Shown here in pieces: positions 5,523 to 11,880 of a DNA stretch of 64,000 nt. The number at the start of each line of letters is the position of its first letter. The stretch's first letter is position 1. The DNA lies in assembly GCA_903873395.1 (NCBI GenBank), contig CAIQOJ010000073.1, positions 1 through 64,000 of the forward strand, read 5' to 3'. This DNA comes from an uncultured Acidimicrobiaceae bacterium. GTDB lineage: Bacteria > Actinomycetota > Acidimicrobiia > Acidimicrobiales > RAAP-2. The notes beneath the pieces are model-generated. The model was not told where the DNA came from, ran no database searches, and was given only the letters and a program-made list of their open reading frames with translations. A program made the position numbers and the translations under genes.

Positions 5523-7349
5523 ATGACTTTGCTCGATCCCGATCGCTTCCCCCTGCACGACACGACCGACTTCGCTGATGCTGATCGTGGTTTCCTCGGC
5601 GCCCTCGAGCCGTGCGTCATCACCGATGCCAACGGGCGAGTGGTCTGGGACAACGACGCCTACGCCTTCTTGGATGGACCGTGTCCCGACACGGCGCATC
5701 CCAGCCTGTGGCGTCAGGGGCAGTTGGTAGCTCGCCAGGGACTCTACGAGGTGTGCCCGGGCATCTACCAGGTGCGAGGGCTCGACCTCTCGAACATGAC
5801 GTTGGTGGAGGGTGACGAGGGCGTGATCGTCATCGATCCGCTCATCTCCTCCGAGACCGCGGCAGCAGCCCTCGCCCTCTACCGCGCACACCGGGGCGAT
5901 CGTGCGGTGACGGCGGTCATCTACACCCATGCGCACGTAGACCACTTCGGCGGTGTGCGCGGTGTCCTCGAGGGGGCAGATCCGGGTATACCCGTGATCG
6001 CACCACAGGGCTTCATGGAATCTGCTGTCGCTGAGAACGTCTACGCCGGAGTGGCCATGAGTAGGCGAGCGGTCTACATGTACGGGTCATCATTGGAAAA
6101 GGGTCCAGCCGGCCAGATCGGCTGCGGTCTCGGGATGACCACGTCGAGCGGGACAGTCGGTCTGGTTCCCCCAACCCTCGACATCACCACGACAGGTGAA
6201 GAGCACGTCCTGGACGGGGTGCGCATCGTGTTCCAGATCACCCCGGGGACGGAATGTCCTGCTGAGATGAACTTCTGGTTCCCCGAACATCGAGCGCTGT
6301 GCATGGCTGAAAATGCCACTCGAAACCTTCATAATCTCGTGACCTTGCGGGGGGCAGTCGTTCGTGATGCCCGGGTGTGGTCGGCCTACCTGGATGAGGC
6401 CATCCAACTTTTCGCCAACGAGGCTGATGTTGCCTTCGCATCCCATCACTGGCCGACCTGGGGTAGCGACAAGGTGGTTGGGTACTTGACACTGCAACGT
6501 GATCTCTACGCCTACCTGCACGACCAGACCCTGCGGCTTATGAACAAGGGGCTCAATGGATCTGAGGCCGCCGAGGTCTTCGAACTTCCCCCGACACTCG
6601 AAGCGGCATGGCATTGCCATGGCTACTACGGATCGGTCAGCCACAACGTCAAGGCCGTCTACCAGCGATACCTCGGATGGTTCGATGGCAATCCTGCTCG
6701 GCTCTGGCAACATCCACCCGAGGCCAGTGCGGAGCGCTATGTCGAGTGCATGGGTGGCGTCGATGCGGTTCTGGCACGAGCTGCGGACTATGCCGCTTCC
6801 GGAGATCTTCGGTTCGCTGCCGAGCTGCTCGACCGAGTCGTGTTCGTGGCACCGGACGACATCAGGGCCAAAGAGGCCCTGGCTGGCGTCTACGACCAAC
6901 TGGCTTGGGGCTCGGAAAACGGCACGTGGCGCAACTTCTTCCTCACCGGAGCGAACGAGCTGAGGCACGGACTAGGCGAACCTGCTCCGGCGGTGGGGTC
7001 GTTGGAGCTTCTCGCTGGTCTGACCCCTGAGCAACTGCTGGATGCCGTCGCCGTGCGAATCGACGGACCGCGGGCGTGGGACGAGCGCATCACGATCGAT
7101 TGGGCGCTGACCGATCTCGAGCAGACCCATCGGGCGACGTTGGCGAACGGAGTGCTCACGCACCGGTTGGTCCCCGATGGCAGTCCTGGAGCTGACCTCC
7201 GCCTGATCCTGACCAAGGGTCAAATGCTCGGAGCCATGATCGGCCTAGGGCTTGATCAGATCAACCATGAGGGAGATCTCGAGGCGCTGACCACGATCCT
7301 CGCTGTCATTGAGTCGCCTGATCGGAACTTCCCCATCGTCACACCGTGA
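5523..7349 (+). CDS. Alkyl sulfatase-like metallo-beta-lactamase-fold hydrolase
   Basis: A 608-residue protein with the metal-binding motif THAHVDH at residues 135-141, an alkylsulfatase-type dimerisation domain and a C-terminal SCP2-like domain. This is the architecture of the SdsA1/YjcS/BDS1 group, which removes sulfate from alkyl sulfates. The N-terminal segment before the hydrolase domain agrees with the family. No classical signal peptide is evident, so it may act in the cytoplasm. The start lacks a strong ribosome-binding site; GAGGAT lies 6 nt before the ATG. It stands divergently from the VOC gene. Confidence 0.88.
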   Translation: MTLLDPDRFPLHDTTDFADADRGFLGALEPCVITDANGRVVWDNDAYAFLDGPCPDTAHPSLWRQGQLVARQGLYEVCPGIYQVRGLDLSNMTLVEGDEGVIVIDPLISSETAAAALALYRAHRGDRAVTAVIYTHAHVDHFGGVRGVLEGADPGIPVIAPQGFMESAVAENVYAGVAMSRRAVYMYGSSLEKGPAGQIGCGLGMTTSSGTVGLVPPTLDITTTGEEHVLDGVRIVFQITPGTECPAEMNFWFPEHRALCMAENATRNLHNLVTLRGAVVRDARVWSAYLDEAIQLFANEADVAFASHHWPTWGSDKVVGYLTLQRDLYAYLHDQTLRLMNKGLNGSEAAEVFELPPTLEAAWHCHGYYGSVSHNVKAVYQRYLGWFDGNPARLWQHPPEASAERYVECMGGVDAVLARAADYAASGDLRFAAELLDRVVFVAPDDIRAKEALAGVYDQLAWGSENGTWRNFFLTGANELRHGLGEPAPAVGSLELLAGLTPEQLLDAVAVRIDGPRAWDERITIDWALTDLEQTHRATLANGVLTHRLVPDGSPGADLRLILTKGQMLGAMIGLGLDQINHEGDLEALTTILAVIESPDRNFPIVTP

Positions 7350-7564: not shown

Positions 7565-7972
7565 TCAGCCGAGCAGGTGCAGCACGTCGACGATCACCAA
7601 GATCGCCACCATGGAGCCGACGATGGCGTAGACAGCGCTGAACAACCACTTCTGATGATGGTCGGCCAACCAGAAGCGGCGGATGCCGAGGACATCGAAG
7701 TACAGCGCCAATAGTCCCACGGGAATGCCTATCCACGGCCCGACACCTCGGGCAAGGCCAAGTGCTGGAAGCACGATCGGGAAGACGATGTAGCTGAGTA
7801 GACACCGAGTTGCAGACAGTAGGACGGAGACGCCAAAGATGCGCTGGGTCTCTGACTCGCCGACGGCAGGGCGCTGGTCGGGGATGCGCAACAGGCGGCG
7901 CATAGTGCGCTCGGCCTTCGACCCGACCTCGCCAGGTGCTGCTGGTGACACAGGTTGAGCAGTCGTCTCCAC
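7565..7972 (-). CDS. Small predicted membrane protein of unknown function
   Basis: A 135-residue protein with a polar N-terminal tail of about 45 residues followed by three or four hydrophobic segments (around 47-70, 73-93 and 108-133). I do not recognise the family. The start is a GTG with no Shine-Dalgarno but with TAGCAT exactly 6 nt upstream, consistent with a leaderless transcript. It is divergent from the DoxX-Rieske gene. Hydrophobicity, codon use and the promoter together make it credible. Confidence 0.65.
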   Translation of the reverse strand: METTAQPVSPAAPGEVGSKAERTMRRLLRIPDQRPAVGESETQRIFGVSVLLSATRCLLSYIVFPIVLPALGLARGVGPWIGIPVGLLALYFDVLGIRRFWLADHHQKWLFSAVYAIVGSMVAILVIVDVLHLLG

Positions 7973-8096: not shown

Positions 8097-8114
8097 ATGG
8101 ATGTGCCGGTATGA
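8097..8114 (+). other. Possible leaderless five-codon upstream ORF
   Basis: ATG-GAT-GTG-CCG-GTA-TGA reads MDVPV. It begins 7 nt after a TAACGT box, and its stop overlaps the next start as ATGA. It may couple translation of the DoxX-Rieske gene on an otherwise leaderless mRNA. The arrangement is seen in the sequence; its use is inferred. Confidence 0.35.
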
Positions 8115-9214
8115 CGTCGAACGCTTCCCGTCGGCTTGATGCTGCGGCTTCCCGGGAAGATGCCGGTACTGCCGTGGCCGACGAGATGTGGTCGTGGCGC
8201 ACGGCCGACGGCACTCTCAAGCCTGGTTGGGCACTGCTTCCACTCCGCCTCTTTCTCGGCGTGACCTTTGTCTTCGCAGGCCTCCAGAAACTGGCCAATC
8301 CCGACTTTTTCCGGTCATCGAGCCCGATCTCCATTCATGCGCAACTGGTGGGGGCATCCCACACCAGTCCGATCGGTTCGCTGCTGGGTCACCTCACGTC
8401 CATCTCCACACTGGTCGGCGTGATCATCGCCGTTGGTGAAGTGGCAGTGGGAGTAGGGGCGTTGGTCGGCCTGTTGACACGAGTGGCAGCGGCGGGCGGC
8501 ATGGCGCTGTCCCTGGGACTGTTCTTGGCGGTTTCCTTCCGAACCAACCCGTATTACAGCGGATCCGACATCGTCTTCCTGTTCGCTTGGACGCCGTTGC
8601 TCGTGGTCGGTGCGGCCGGGGCGCCAGCTCTGGATACGTGGCTAGCGGATCGGCGTGCAGCCGCACCAGCCGCGGAACCTGCCGGTGGGGTCTCCCGGCG
8701 GGCCGTCGTGTCGACGGGAGCGATTGCCGCGGGAGTTGCCGGCGGAGTAGTGCTGCTGAGTGGTGCCGTCGCTGCTCTCGGGCGAATGTTCGCACCTTCG
8801 ACGTCGGCTGCCAACACATCGACGACCACGACGACCACAAGCACCACGACGACGGCTCCCACGGCGTCCACGACGACCACGAGCACCACCGCCGCAGCGC
8901 CTCCGGCTGGGACGGTCATCGGTTCGACTTCGTCCGTTCCTGTCGGCGGATCGGCGACGTTCACTGATCCCAAGACCGGTGATCCCGGACTCGTGATCCA
9001 GCAACCCGCAGACACGTACCGGGCCTTCGACGCAATCTGCCCCCATGCTGGCTGCACGGTGGCCTACCAGCCGTCGGCCAAAATCATCGTCTGTCCCTGC
9101 CATGGCTCCGAGTTCAATGCCAAGACGGGTGCTGTGGAGCTCGGACCGGCAACAACGGGTCTGACTCCGATCAAAGTCGTCCGAGGTCCCAACGGCGACC
9201 TCTATGCCATCTGA
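8111..9214 (+). CDS. DoxX-like membrane domain fused to a Rieske [2Fe-2S] domain
   Basis: A 367-residue fusion. Residues about 35-180 form a four-helix DoxX/DoxD-like membrane domain (LRLFLGVTFVFAGLQKLANP is typical). A further hydrophobic segment preceded by SRR (about 196-222) is followed by a Thr/Ser-rich linker of about 45 residues. The C-terminal Rieske domain has C310-x-H312 and C328-x-x-H331 as cluster ligands, with C315 and C330 placed for the disulfide of high-potential Rieske proteins. It probably moves electrons between a quinol or small reductant and an extracytoplasmic partner, which is inference. It precedes a desaturase gene by 13 nt. Confidence 0.85.
   Translation: MTSNASRRLDAAASREDAGTAVADEMWSWRTADGTLKPGWALLPLRLFLGVTFVFAGLQKLANPDFFRSSSPISIHAQLVGASHTSPIGSLLGHLTSISTLVGVIIAVGEVAVGVGALVGLLTRVAAAGGMALSLGLFLAVSFRTNPYYSGSDIVFLFAWTPLLVVGAAGAPALDTWLADRRAAAPAAEPAGGVSRRAVVSTGAIAAGVAGGVVLLSGAVAALGRMFAPSTSAANTSTTTTTTSTTTTAPTASTTTTSTTAAAPPAGTVIGSTSSVPVGGSATFTDPKTGDPGLVIQQPADTYRAFDAICPHAGCTVAYQPSAKIIVCPCHGSEFNAKTGAVELGPATTGLTPIKVVRGPNGDLYAI
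8815..8910 (+). repeat. ACC/ACG triplet-rich tract encoding a Thr linker
   Basis: A low-complexity run dominated by threonine codons (ACG, ACC, ACA), encoding the linker between membrane and Rieske domains. It probably acts as a flexible, possibly glycosylated, extracytoplasmic tether. Confidence 0.8.
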
Positions 9215-9227
9215 TGGGAGCACACTG

Positions 9228-10487
9228 ATGGGCACCGCCGTACTCGAACCCACCGGATCTTCCGATGTTGGGCCCGCAGAGACTTACGACCGGATCGACT
9301 GGGTGTCAGCCATTCCGTTCTTGGCCTGTCACGCTGCTCCGCTGGCCGCCTTCTTCGTCACGGTCACCTGGCAGGACTGGGTGCTTTGTGCTGTCACGTA
9401 CCTGGTCCGGATGTTCTGCATCACCGCCGGCTACCACCGGTACTTCTCTCACCGGTCGTATAAGACGGGACGAGTCGTGCAGTTCCTGTTGGCGTTCGGC
9501 GGAACGACCGCCGTCCAAAAAGGACCGTTGTGGTGGGCTTCGCACCACCGTGTGCACCACCGCTTCACCGACCTCGATGGTGACGTGCACTCACCGCGTG
9601 ATGGCTTCTGGTGGAGCCATGTCGGATGGATCCTGTCCACTCGCCACAAAGACACCGACCTGGACGGCATCAAAGACTTCGCCGCCTACCCGGAACTTCG
9701 CCTCCTTGAGCGTTTCAACTGGGTGGGTCCGTGGTCGCTGGCCATCGTCTGTTTCCTCATTGGTGGTTGGGGAGGCCTGCTCATCGGGTTCTTCCTCTCG
9801 ACGGTGCTGCTCTGGCATGCGACGTTCTTCGTCAATTCGCTGGCCCACATCATCGGAAGACGCCGCTACGCCACGCCGGACACCAGCAGGAACTCTGTGT
9901 TCATCGCCATCGTCACGGGCGGTGAAGGCTGGCACAACAACCACCACTACCTGCCGGCCTCTGTTCGCCAGGGCTTTCGATGGTGGGAGTTCGACCCGAC
10001 GTGGTACGCGCTGAAGGTCATGGAGGCAATGCATCTGGTCCGGGACCTCCGCAACCCCCCGGCCCGGCTGCTCGAGCAGGCCCGAGTCCGTGACGGTGCG
10101 TTCGACATCGGCATGTTCCGCAGCTACTGGGAGCGAGCCGCCAAGGTGACCGGCGAACGGATCGCAGACCTGACTGCTCGGCCAATGGCGCCCTCGTCGG
10201 AAGGAGCCACAGATGCCGACGCGCCGACGACCGGAGCGAACGACAGCGATGCCGCTGGTCAAGTCTCGGTTCCGTCGGAGTCCGACCGAACCCGCAGTGA
10301 ATCACTCCCGCCGGTCGAGTCGGCAACGGGGGATGCGAGCGCCACATCCGAACCACTGGCCAACCTGAGTGGTCTGATCTCTCGTGCGCTCGAGTCGGCG
10401 GAGAGCCTTGCTGCGTCGACCCGTCGCCGCAAGGTGCCTGTCACCTCGACTTCCGAAGGTGACGGGGAGATCCGCTCCGGAGGATGA
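9228..10487 (+). CDS. Acyl-CoA/acyl-lipid delta-9-type desaturase
   Basis: A membrane-bound fatty-acid desaturase of about 419 residues with all three histidine boxes: HRYFSH, HRVHH and HNNHH. These ligate the di-iron centre that inserts a cis double bond in an acyl chain, using O2 and electrons from a reductase chain. The desaturase core ends near residue 300; a Ser/Thr/Glu-rich, probably disordered tail of about 110 residues follows, which is longer than usual. The ATG at 9228 was preferred over 9204 because GGGAG lies 7 nt before it. The neighbouring Rieske gene suggests, without proof, a linked electron-transfer role. Confidence 0.92.
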   Translation: MGTAVLEPTGSSDVGPAETYDRIDWVSAIPFLACHAAPLAAFFVTVTWQDWVLCAVTYLVRMFCITAGYHRYFSHRSYKTGRVVQFLLAFGGTTAVQKGPLWWASHHRVHHRFTDLDGDVHSPRDGFWWSHVGWILSTRHKDTDLDGIKDFAAYPELRLLERFNWVGPWSLAIVCFLIGGWGGLLIGFFLSTVLLWHATFFVNSLAHIIGRRRYATPDTSRNSVFIAIVTGGEGWHNNHHYLPASVRQGFRWWEFDPTWYALKVMEAMHLVRDLRNPPARLLEQARVRDGAFDIGMFRSYWERAAKVTGERIADLTARPMAPSSEGATDADAPTTGANDSDAAGQVSVPSESDRTRSESLPPVESATGDASATSEPLANLSGLISRALESAESLAASTRRRKVPVTSTSEGDGEIRSGG

Positions 10488-11400: not shown

Positions 11401-11880
11401 ATGGCGACAAACGACTCCTTTCAGCGGTATATCGATGCCGGAATGGCCTTCACCAACCTGACCCGCAAGCGGGCCGAGGAACTGGTGTCTGAACTGGTCC
11501 AGAACGGCGAGGTGCAGCGATCCGAAGCCCGCTCGCGCGTTGATGAACTCATCGAACGAAGCCGGAAAAGCTCCGAAGTTGTCGTCGCTACGGTGCGGGC
11601 CGAGGTAGGACGCCAGCTCGAGCACCTGGGAATCACCAACCTCGAAGACCTGGCGACTCAGGTCGCAGATCTGCTGGGTCGCAGCGCCGATACCGTCACC
11701 TCTGCAGCCAAGAAGGCTCCAGCCAAAAAGGCAGCGGCCAAGAAGGCTCCGGCCAAAAAGGCAGCGGCCAAGAAGGCTCCGGCCAAAAAGGCAGCCGCCA
11801 AGAAGGCTCCGGCCAAGAAGGCAGCCGCCAAGAAGGCTCCGGCCAAGAAGGCTCCGGCCAAGAAGGCAGCGGCCGACTGA
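11401..11880 (+). CDS. Phasin-like protein with histone H1-like Lys/Ala tail
   Basis: A 159-residue protein. Residues 1-100 form amphipathic helices ([20 protein letters not shown]) like PhaF/PhaI-type phasins. Residues about 101-158 are repeats of [10 protein letters not shown], a strongly basic tail like those of eukaryotic H1 and actinobacterial HupB. Such proteins can bind DNA, and PhaF links PHA granules to the nucleoid; here either role is inference. The tail is encoded by near-perfect nucleotide repeats. The gene sits between the HAD gene and tlyA, where other actinobacteria carry a small gene (compare Rv1693), and probably has its own leaderless promoter. Confidence 0.85.
11701..11876 (+). 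repeat. Tandem codon repeats for the AAKKAP tail
   Basis: Roughly 30-bp units of the type GCCAAGAAGGCTCCG plus GCCAAAAAGGCAGCG repeat about five to six times. High identity between units makes length variation between strains likely. Confidence 0.9.

Follow-up and report, generated by a model that had tools for sequence, protein, structure and literature searches.

In actinobacterial Rieske proteins, the first helices are inserted into the membrane by Sec and the last helix by Tat (PMC5449189). QcrA, the three-helix Rieske subunit of bcc (Sco2149 in S. coelicolor), has an even number of helices, then an RR pair, a last helix with a basic residue behind it and a Rieske domain on the outer side; the protein studied here resembles it in these points, with the outer placing of its own Rieske domain being a prediction. 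KSE_30950 of Kitasatospora setae, a homologue of Rieske proteins for which five helices and an RR beside helix 5 are noted, has been described in a text without mention of DoxX (PMC5449189). The Rieske fold is shared further with AioB, the small subunit of the molybdoenzyme arsenite oxidase, and with the cyanobacterial plasma-membrane protein PetC3 of Synechocystis, both of which, unlike the protein studied here, have no DoxX domain. PetC3 does not belong to the main b6f complex. The four-helix domain recognised by Pfam as DoxX/DoxD is found in DoxD of TQO and in DoxX of the mycobacterial MRC, which have separate partners (DoxA for DoxD, SodA and SseA for mycobacterial DoxX), whereas the partner in the protein studied here is a fused Rieske domain.

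A literature search for DoxX or DoxD together with Rieske, with subscription papers outside its scope, found no paper describing such a fusion; a search on DoxX and quinone stress (MhqR/CatE context) gave no direct evidence on DoxX, and one for the potential of PetC3 gave no value. Rieske proteins outside bc1/b6f without a known partner are poorly understood, and the chemistry of DoxX, though the domain is widespread, is unclear. The fusion of the two in a large conserved family offers a handle on DoxX function, and its diverse members probably extend the range of dual Sec/Tat-integrated proteins.

Architecture and distribution of the DoxX-Rieske protein

The window (the whole 64,000-nucleotide stretch that was analysed) contains a single uninterrupted reading frame on the plus strand at 8111-9214, with an ATG start and a TGA stop, encoding a DoxX-Rieske fusion of 367 aa. 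The start is backed by the N-terminus MTSNA.RR, common to several homologues of the genus. With curated Pfam cut-offs, DoxX (PF07681) matched residues 41-143 (2e-7, 32 bits against a cut-off of 23.6), DoxD (PF04173) residues 43-143 (4.4e-7, 30.4 bits against 22.7) and Rieske (PF00355) residues 290-350 (1.3e-11, 44.7 bits against 20.3). Pfam, alignment and the AF2 model together delimit the DoxX/DoxD four-helix domain at residues 41-178 (8231-8644, plus strand, as for all following features of the gene). It is followed by a twin-arginine SRR at residues 195-197 (8693-8701) in a presumed cytoplasmic loop, by a fifth hydrophobic helix at residues 199-223 (8705-8779; AF2, alignment and hydropathy scan) with the nearly invariant R225 behind it, by a Thr-rich disordered tether at residues 227-265 (8789-8905; 19 Thr in the 40 residues 227-266), and by the Rieske [2Fe-2S] domain at residues 266-367 (8906-9211), recognised by Pfam, by sequence matches in PDB and by structural matches with Z of 15-16. 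Box 1 of the Rieske domain, CPHAGC (9038-9055), carries the ligands C310 and H312 and the disulfide cysteine C315; box 2, CPCHGS (9092-9109), carries the ligands C328 and H331, the disulfide cysteine C330 and the hydrogen-bonding Ser333. The four ligands and the disulfide pair C315/C330 were invariant in 17 aligned homologues, and the DoxX residues R46, Q59, K60, E110, R124 and D153 were invariant in 17 aligned fusions. The original prediction had read a DoxX domain, a TAT-like or anchor helix, a Thr-rich linker and a Rieske domain with intact C-x-H and C-x-x-H ligands and a disulfide pair in one polypeptide, and each of these parts was recovered here, within one frame.

A search of 61 genomes showed that 11 of the 14 genus members carry the fusion; outside the genus it was present, mostly at lower identity, in 12 of 23 genomes from the rest of the family and in one other family of the order. 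The homologues in 10 of the 13 other genus genomes were full length, had the same architecture and were 60-65% identical, which rules out a chance fusion and also a joining of two genes by sequencing error, the weak point named in the original prediction. Of 298 sampled genomes of the order, 34 matched the fusion profile strongly, and a phylum sample added fusions from two more families, f73 and f107. Named carriers in Actinomycetota are Acidimicrobiaceae and Acidimicrobiales MAGs, a Thermoleophilaceae MAG, three Kitasatospora, Streptomyces sp. NRRL F-6131 and Candidatus Planktophila; several Chloroflexota, including a Ktedonobacterales MAG, and one MAG labelled Proteobacteria carry it as well. 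The spread of the architecture, which the original prediction had left to a domain search, thus covers Actinomycetota and Chloroflexota. The DoxX-Rieske protein is real, widespread and widely conserved, and the fusion is a new variant of known parts. Seven changes between the fused and the not-fused state were counted in a Rieske-domain tree with too few columns to tell one fusion event from several. The long N-terminal extensions of three homologues (L038, L039 and L086) are taken to be upstream read-through of the mechanical ORF and not domains.

Rieske proteins of this kind were also common as standalone forms, held by a short anchor at the N-terminus (L063-L113). A split form was found at two of these loci, where a DoxX gene lies divergent from the standalone Rieske gene at about 0.7 kb (Rubrobacter taiwanensis, L066) or about 0.1 kb (an actinobacterial MAG, L092); this closeness supports a link between both domains. 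Genomes of genus g216 (7-10 Mb; L144-L147 and L148-L149) encode a standalone DoxX that closely resembles the DoxX part of the fusion and has no Rieske neighbour, and also a DoxX protein of 547-575 aa that lacks a Rieske domain and has a tail rich in Pro, Ser and Gly.

A variant in which the loop joining DoxX to helix 5 contains at least four Cys was present in 23 of the 50 fusions of the tree set, in a sister branch (L019-L027, L036, L038-L044, L046, L051, L052, L056, L061 and L062), with the pattern C-x7-C-x7-C-x4-C-P in ten aligned fusions. All clear matches to this Cys4 module in a scan of 118 genomes fell in fusion-sized frames, and comparison of the insert with PDB and Pfam gave nothing convincing. 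The window protein does not carry the module.

Topology and predicted Sec/Tat assembly

The AF2 model, computed from a 17-row alignment (mean pLDDT 76, pTM 0.55), places helices of the DoxX part at residues 43-62, 89-119, 123-142 and 150-166 and the fifth helix at 196-227; pLDDT was 89-96 in the Rieske domain and 34-37 in the tether (231-260). Lys and Arg together numbered five at the N-terminus, one in each of the loops 1-2, 2-3 and 3-4, four in the loop before helix 5 and one just after it. RR ahead of helix 5 was present in 48 of 51 fusions, the three fusions without it all belonging to the window's own genus (L005, L007 and L008), and a basic residue followed helix 5 in 44 of 51. The genome also encodes TatC. 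The dual Sec/Tat pattern of an even helix count, RR, one helix and a cofactor domain is seen in the AF2 helices with RR at 195-197, and R225 supplies the positive charge after the last helix. One difference from proven Sec/Tat proteins, in which the last helix is of low hydrophobicity, is that helix 5 of the fusion was not less hydrophobic than helices 1-4 by Kyte-Doolittle and Hessa sums, both crude scales.

The RR before helix 5, the basic residue after it, the helix count and the Thr-rich tether suggest that the Rieske domain is extracytoplasmic and assembled like the Sec/Tat-integrated QcrA; a cytoplasmic placing, on which the original prediction would have foundered, was not indicated. 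Sec would insert helices 1-4, the Rieske domain would take up its cluster and fold in the cytoplasm, and Tat would then insert helix 5 and carry the domain, already folded, across the membrane, in the manner of actinobacterial QcrA. The fusion differs from QcrA in that the DoxX bundle replaces two helices, in its long Thr-rich tether, in its cluster-binding motifs and in being encoded apart from cytochrome b and c. KSE_30950 is probably a member of the DoxX-Rieske family, judging from the three Kitasatospora fusions (L049, L050 and L058), which fit its description.

The Rieske site and comparison with known systems

The site of the window protein reads CPHAGC ... CPCHGSEF. Pro and Ala thus flank the ligand His312 where bc1 and b6f proteins have Thr and Leu, and Phe335, next but one after Ser333, occupies the bc1 Tyr position, so that the bc1/b6f motif CTHLGC with CHGSxY is absent; the best b6f sequence matches in PDB have CTHLGC and CPCHGSQY. 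Among 51 fusions, box 1 was CPHAGC in 29 and CTHAGC in 10, and Leu followed the ligand His in only two. The hydrogen-bonding Ser is kept in the window protein and in most fusions, and is replaced by Ala (CHGA) in most Chloroflexota members and in families f73 and f107, whose potential should, on this replacement, sit lower.

For bc1, the positions flanking the ligand His are stated to be important for the reaction with quinone but not for the potential (PMC3758308). NT-26 AioB, which like the window site has Pro before the ligand His, Ser at one tuning position and Phe at that of the bc1 Tyr, was measured at +225 mV, and at +190 mV with an added disulfide (PMC3758308); Kustd1480, another Ser/Phe Rieske protein, was measured at +335 mV (PMC12954380). 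As Ser/Phe sites have been measured at +190 to +335 mV, the window site could plausibly reach at least about +0.19 V, and by analogy its potential should lie within +0.19 to +0.34 V. The label of a high-potential Rieske domain in the original prediction holds with respect to Ser333 and is weakened by Phe335 in place of Tyr. Pro and Ala beside the ligand His, together with Phe for Tyr, do not indicate quinol oxidation of the bc1 type. The premise that Rieske proteins of this type oxidise quinols has accordingly lost ground: the two motifs are closer to those of AioB than to those of bc1 or b6f, and the genome has a QcrA of its own in a bcc set. Structural comparison gave Z of 16.3 with the C. 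tepidum Rieske protein (8hn2), 15.4 with PetC3 (5cxm), 15.0 with AioB, about 13-15 with dioxygenase ferredoxins and 11.8 with bovine bc1.

NCBIfam matches to the bc1 and b6f families stayed far below their cut-offs (bc1_QcrA_actin, 38.4 against 275; Cytb6fFeSPetC, 41.6 against 250; Rieske_proteo, 25.4 against 97.4), and no cytochrome b or c gene was found by Pfam among the neighbours of the fusion gene in the window. The bcc set of the genome, complete and with assignments read from the sequences, lies on contig C33. Its genes are those of oxidase subunit III, of a cytochrome c in which CxxCH occurs twice, of QcrA with CTHLGC/CPCHQS and of cytochrome b. A profile search of the genome, which is 94% complete, did not find DoxA (PF07680). 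The genome's own bcc operon with QcrA, and the absence of DoxA, indicate that the window protein does not act as the Rieske subunit of respiration and does not belong to a thiosulfate enzyme of the DoxDA type. The DoxX part had no sequence relative in PDB. Its only listed structural neighbour was NACHO/TMEM35A, which is not an electron-transfer protein, at a Z of 12.2 that is within the chance range for helical bundles; the fold searches used whole models, so that the Rieske domain filled the match lists and the DoxX fold was barely covered.

Gene neighbourhood and possible function

In 17 of 50 fusion loci, one of them a fragment at a contig end, an OmpR-type regulator and a HAMP histidine kinase (Pfam) were encoded no more than 2 kb away from the fusion. 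The pair was near none of 48 standalone Rieske loci, which came mostly from other actinobacterial families. With related and hence non-independent loci in the sets and several short flanks, this contrast is a strong hint rather than a formal test. The regulator gene overlaps the fusion gene by 4 nt at six loci (L039, L040, L041, L042, L052 and L061), and the pair is divergent in the Chloroflexota, Ktedonobacterales and Thermoleophilaceae loci. It was also present, again divergent, beside five of six fusions of families f73 and f107 (L150-L155), which were fetched after the pattern had been noted. The pair was absent beside the window gene and from the loci of its own genus. A two-component system beside so many relatives probably points to a regulated envelope redox function rather than to the main respiratory bc1 Rieske subunit, and its recurrence makes a regulated role testable in the culturable Kitasatospora.

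We tentatively favour, at somewhat less than even confidence, a membrane-tethered, extracytoplasmic one-electron relay as the function of the fusion. The DoxX bundle may hold a membrane-soluble or thiol/sulfur-type reductant and pass electrons to the Rieske head, which on its long tether could move to an acceptor at the outer face; these two steps are the least certain. The protein might instead be a redox sensor whose Rieske head and DoxX part report the redox state of the outer face to the OmpR/kinase pair, the window's genus having lost or moved the pair. The enrichment near fusions, the 4-nt overlaps and the presence of the pair in other groups would fit this, yet a neighbouring two-component system may merely regulate the gene, the genus itself has no such pair, the controls are mostly from other families and not all fused loci have full flanks, and we consider a sensor unlikely. 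Doubtful to a similar degree is a DoxX part that serves only as an anchor, without a redox role, for a Rieske carrier of an outer-face oxidoreductase. Short anchors do suffice in the common standalone proteins, and TMEM35A has no redox role, but the six invariant DoxX residues go beyond what a plain anchor needs, and the closely placed DoxX and Rieske genes of the split form argue in the same direction. A more elaborate version, which we regard as quite unlikely, would make the fusion the input of an undescribed envelope redox-sensing system: a membrane reductant would charge the tethered cluster, the co-encoded OmpR-type system would read its redox state, and the cytoplasmic Cys4 of the sister branch would add a second metal or redox site at the inner face, so that a single protein would carry one at either face of the membrane.

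The main proposal of the original prediction, a stand-alone quinol outlet, here read as a menaquinol oxidase or outlet of the bc1 type, is improbable: the ligands, disulfide and Ser of bc1 Rieske proteins are present, but the flanks of His312, which matter for quinone reactivity in bc1 (PMC3758308), and the Phe for Tyr speak against it, as do the lack of an adjacent cytochrome b or c gene and the bcc operon elsewhere in the genome. For the thiosulfate-linked outlet also proposed there, which would be a system of the thiosulfate:quinone oxidoreductase type, Pfam DoxD does match above its cut-off, but the general DoxX model matches at least as well, and without DoxA in the genome this reading finds no support and is very improbable. 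Least credible is direct electron donation to the adjacent fatty-acid desaturase (9229-10487, plus strand; the frame opens at 9204, with the ATG at 9229 the likelier start), which we do not count as part of the system. A desaturase gene lies downstream of the fusion in eight loci of the genus and two of a sister genus, but with a gap of 63-100 nt in eight of the ten, and the cluster was not found beside fusions outside those two genera in the loci compared. The Rieske domain is predicted to be outside, while such desaturases work at the cytoplasmic face of the membrane. The doubt already voiced about a direct link is borne out, and the adjacency looks like synteny.

Other neighbours of the fusion gene in the window were noted. 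Upstream, at 5523-7349 on the plus strand, is an alkyl-sulfatase-type metallo-beta-lactamase gene that is syntenic in several loci of the genus. A gene at 7565-7972 on the minus strand, which points away from the fusion gene and recurs in about eight related loci, encodes a hydrophobic protein of 135 aa with no Pfam match. Further downstream, at 11401-11880 on the plus strand, a 159-aa protein is encoded that has a Lys/Ala-rich, histone H1-like repeat tail (PAKKAAAKK).
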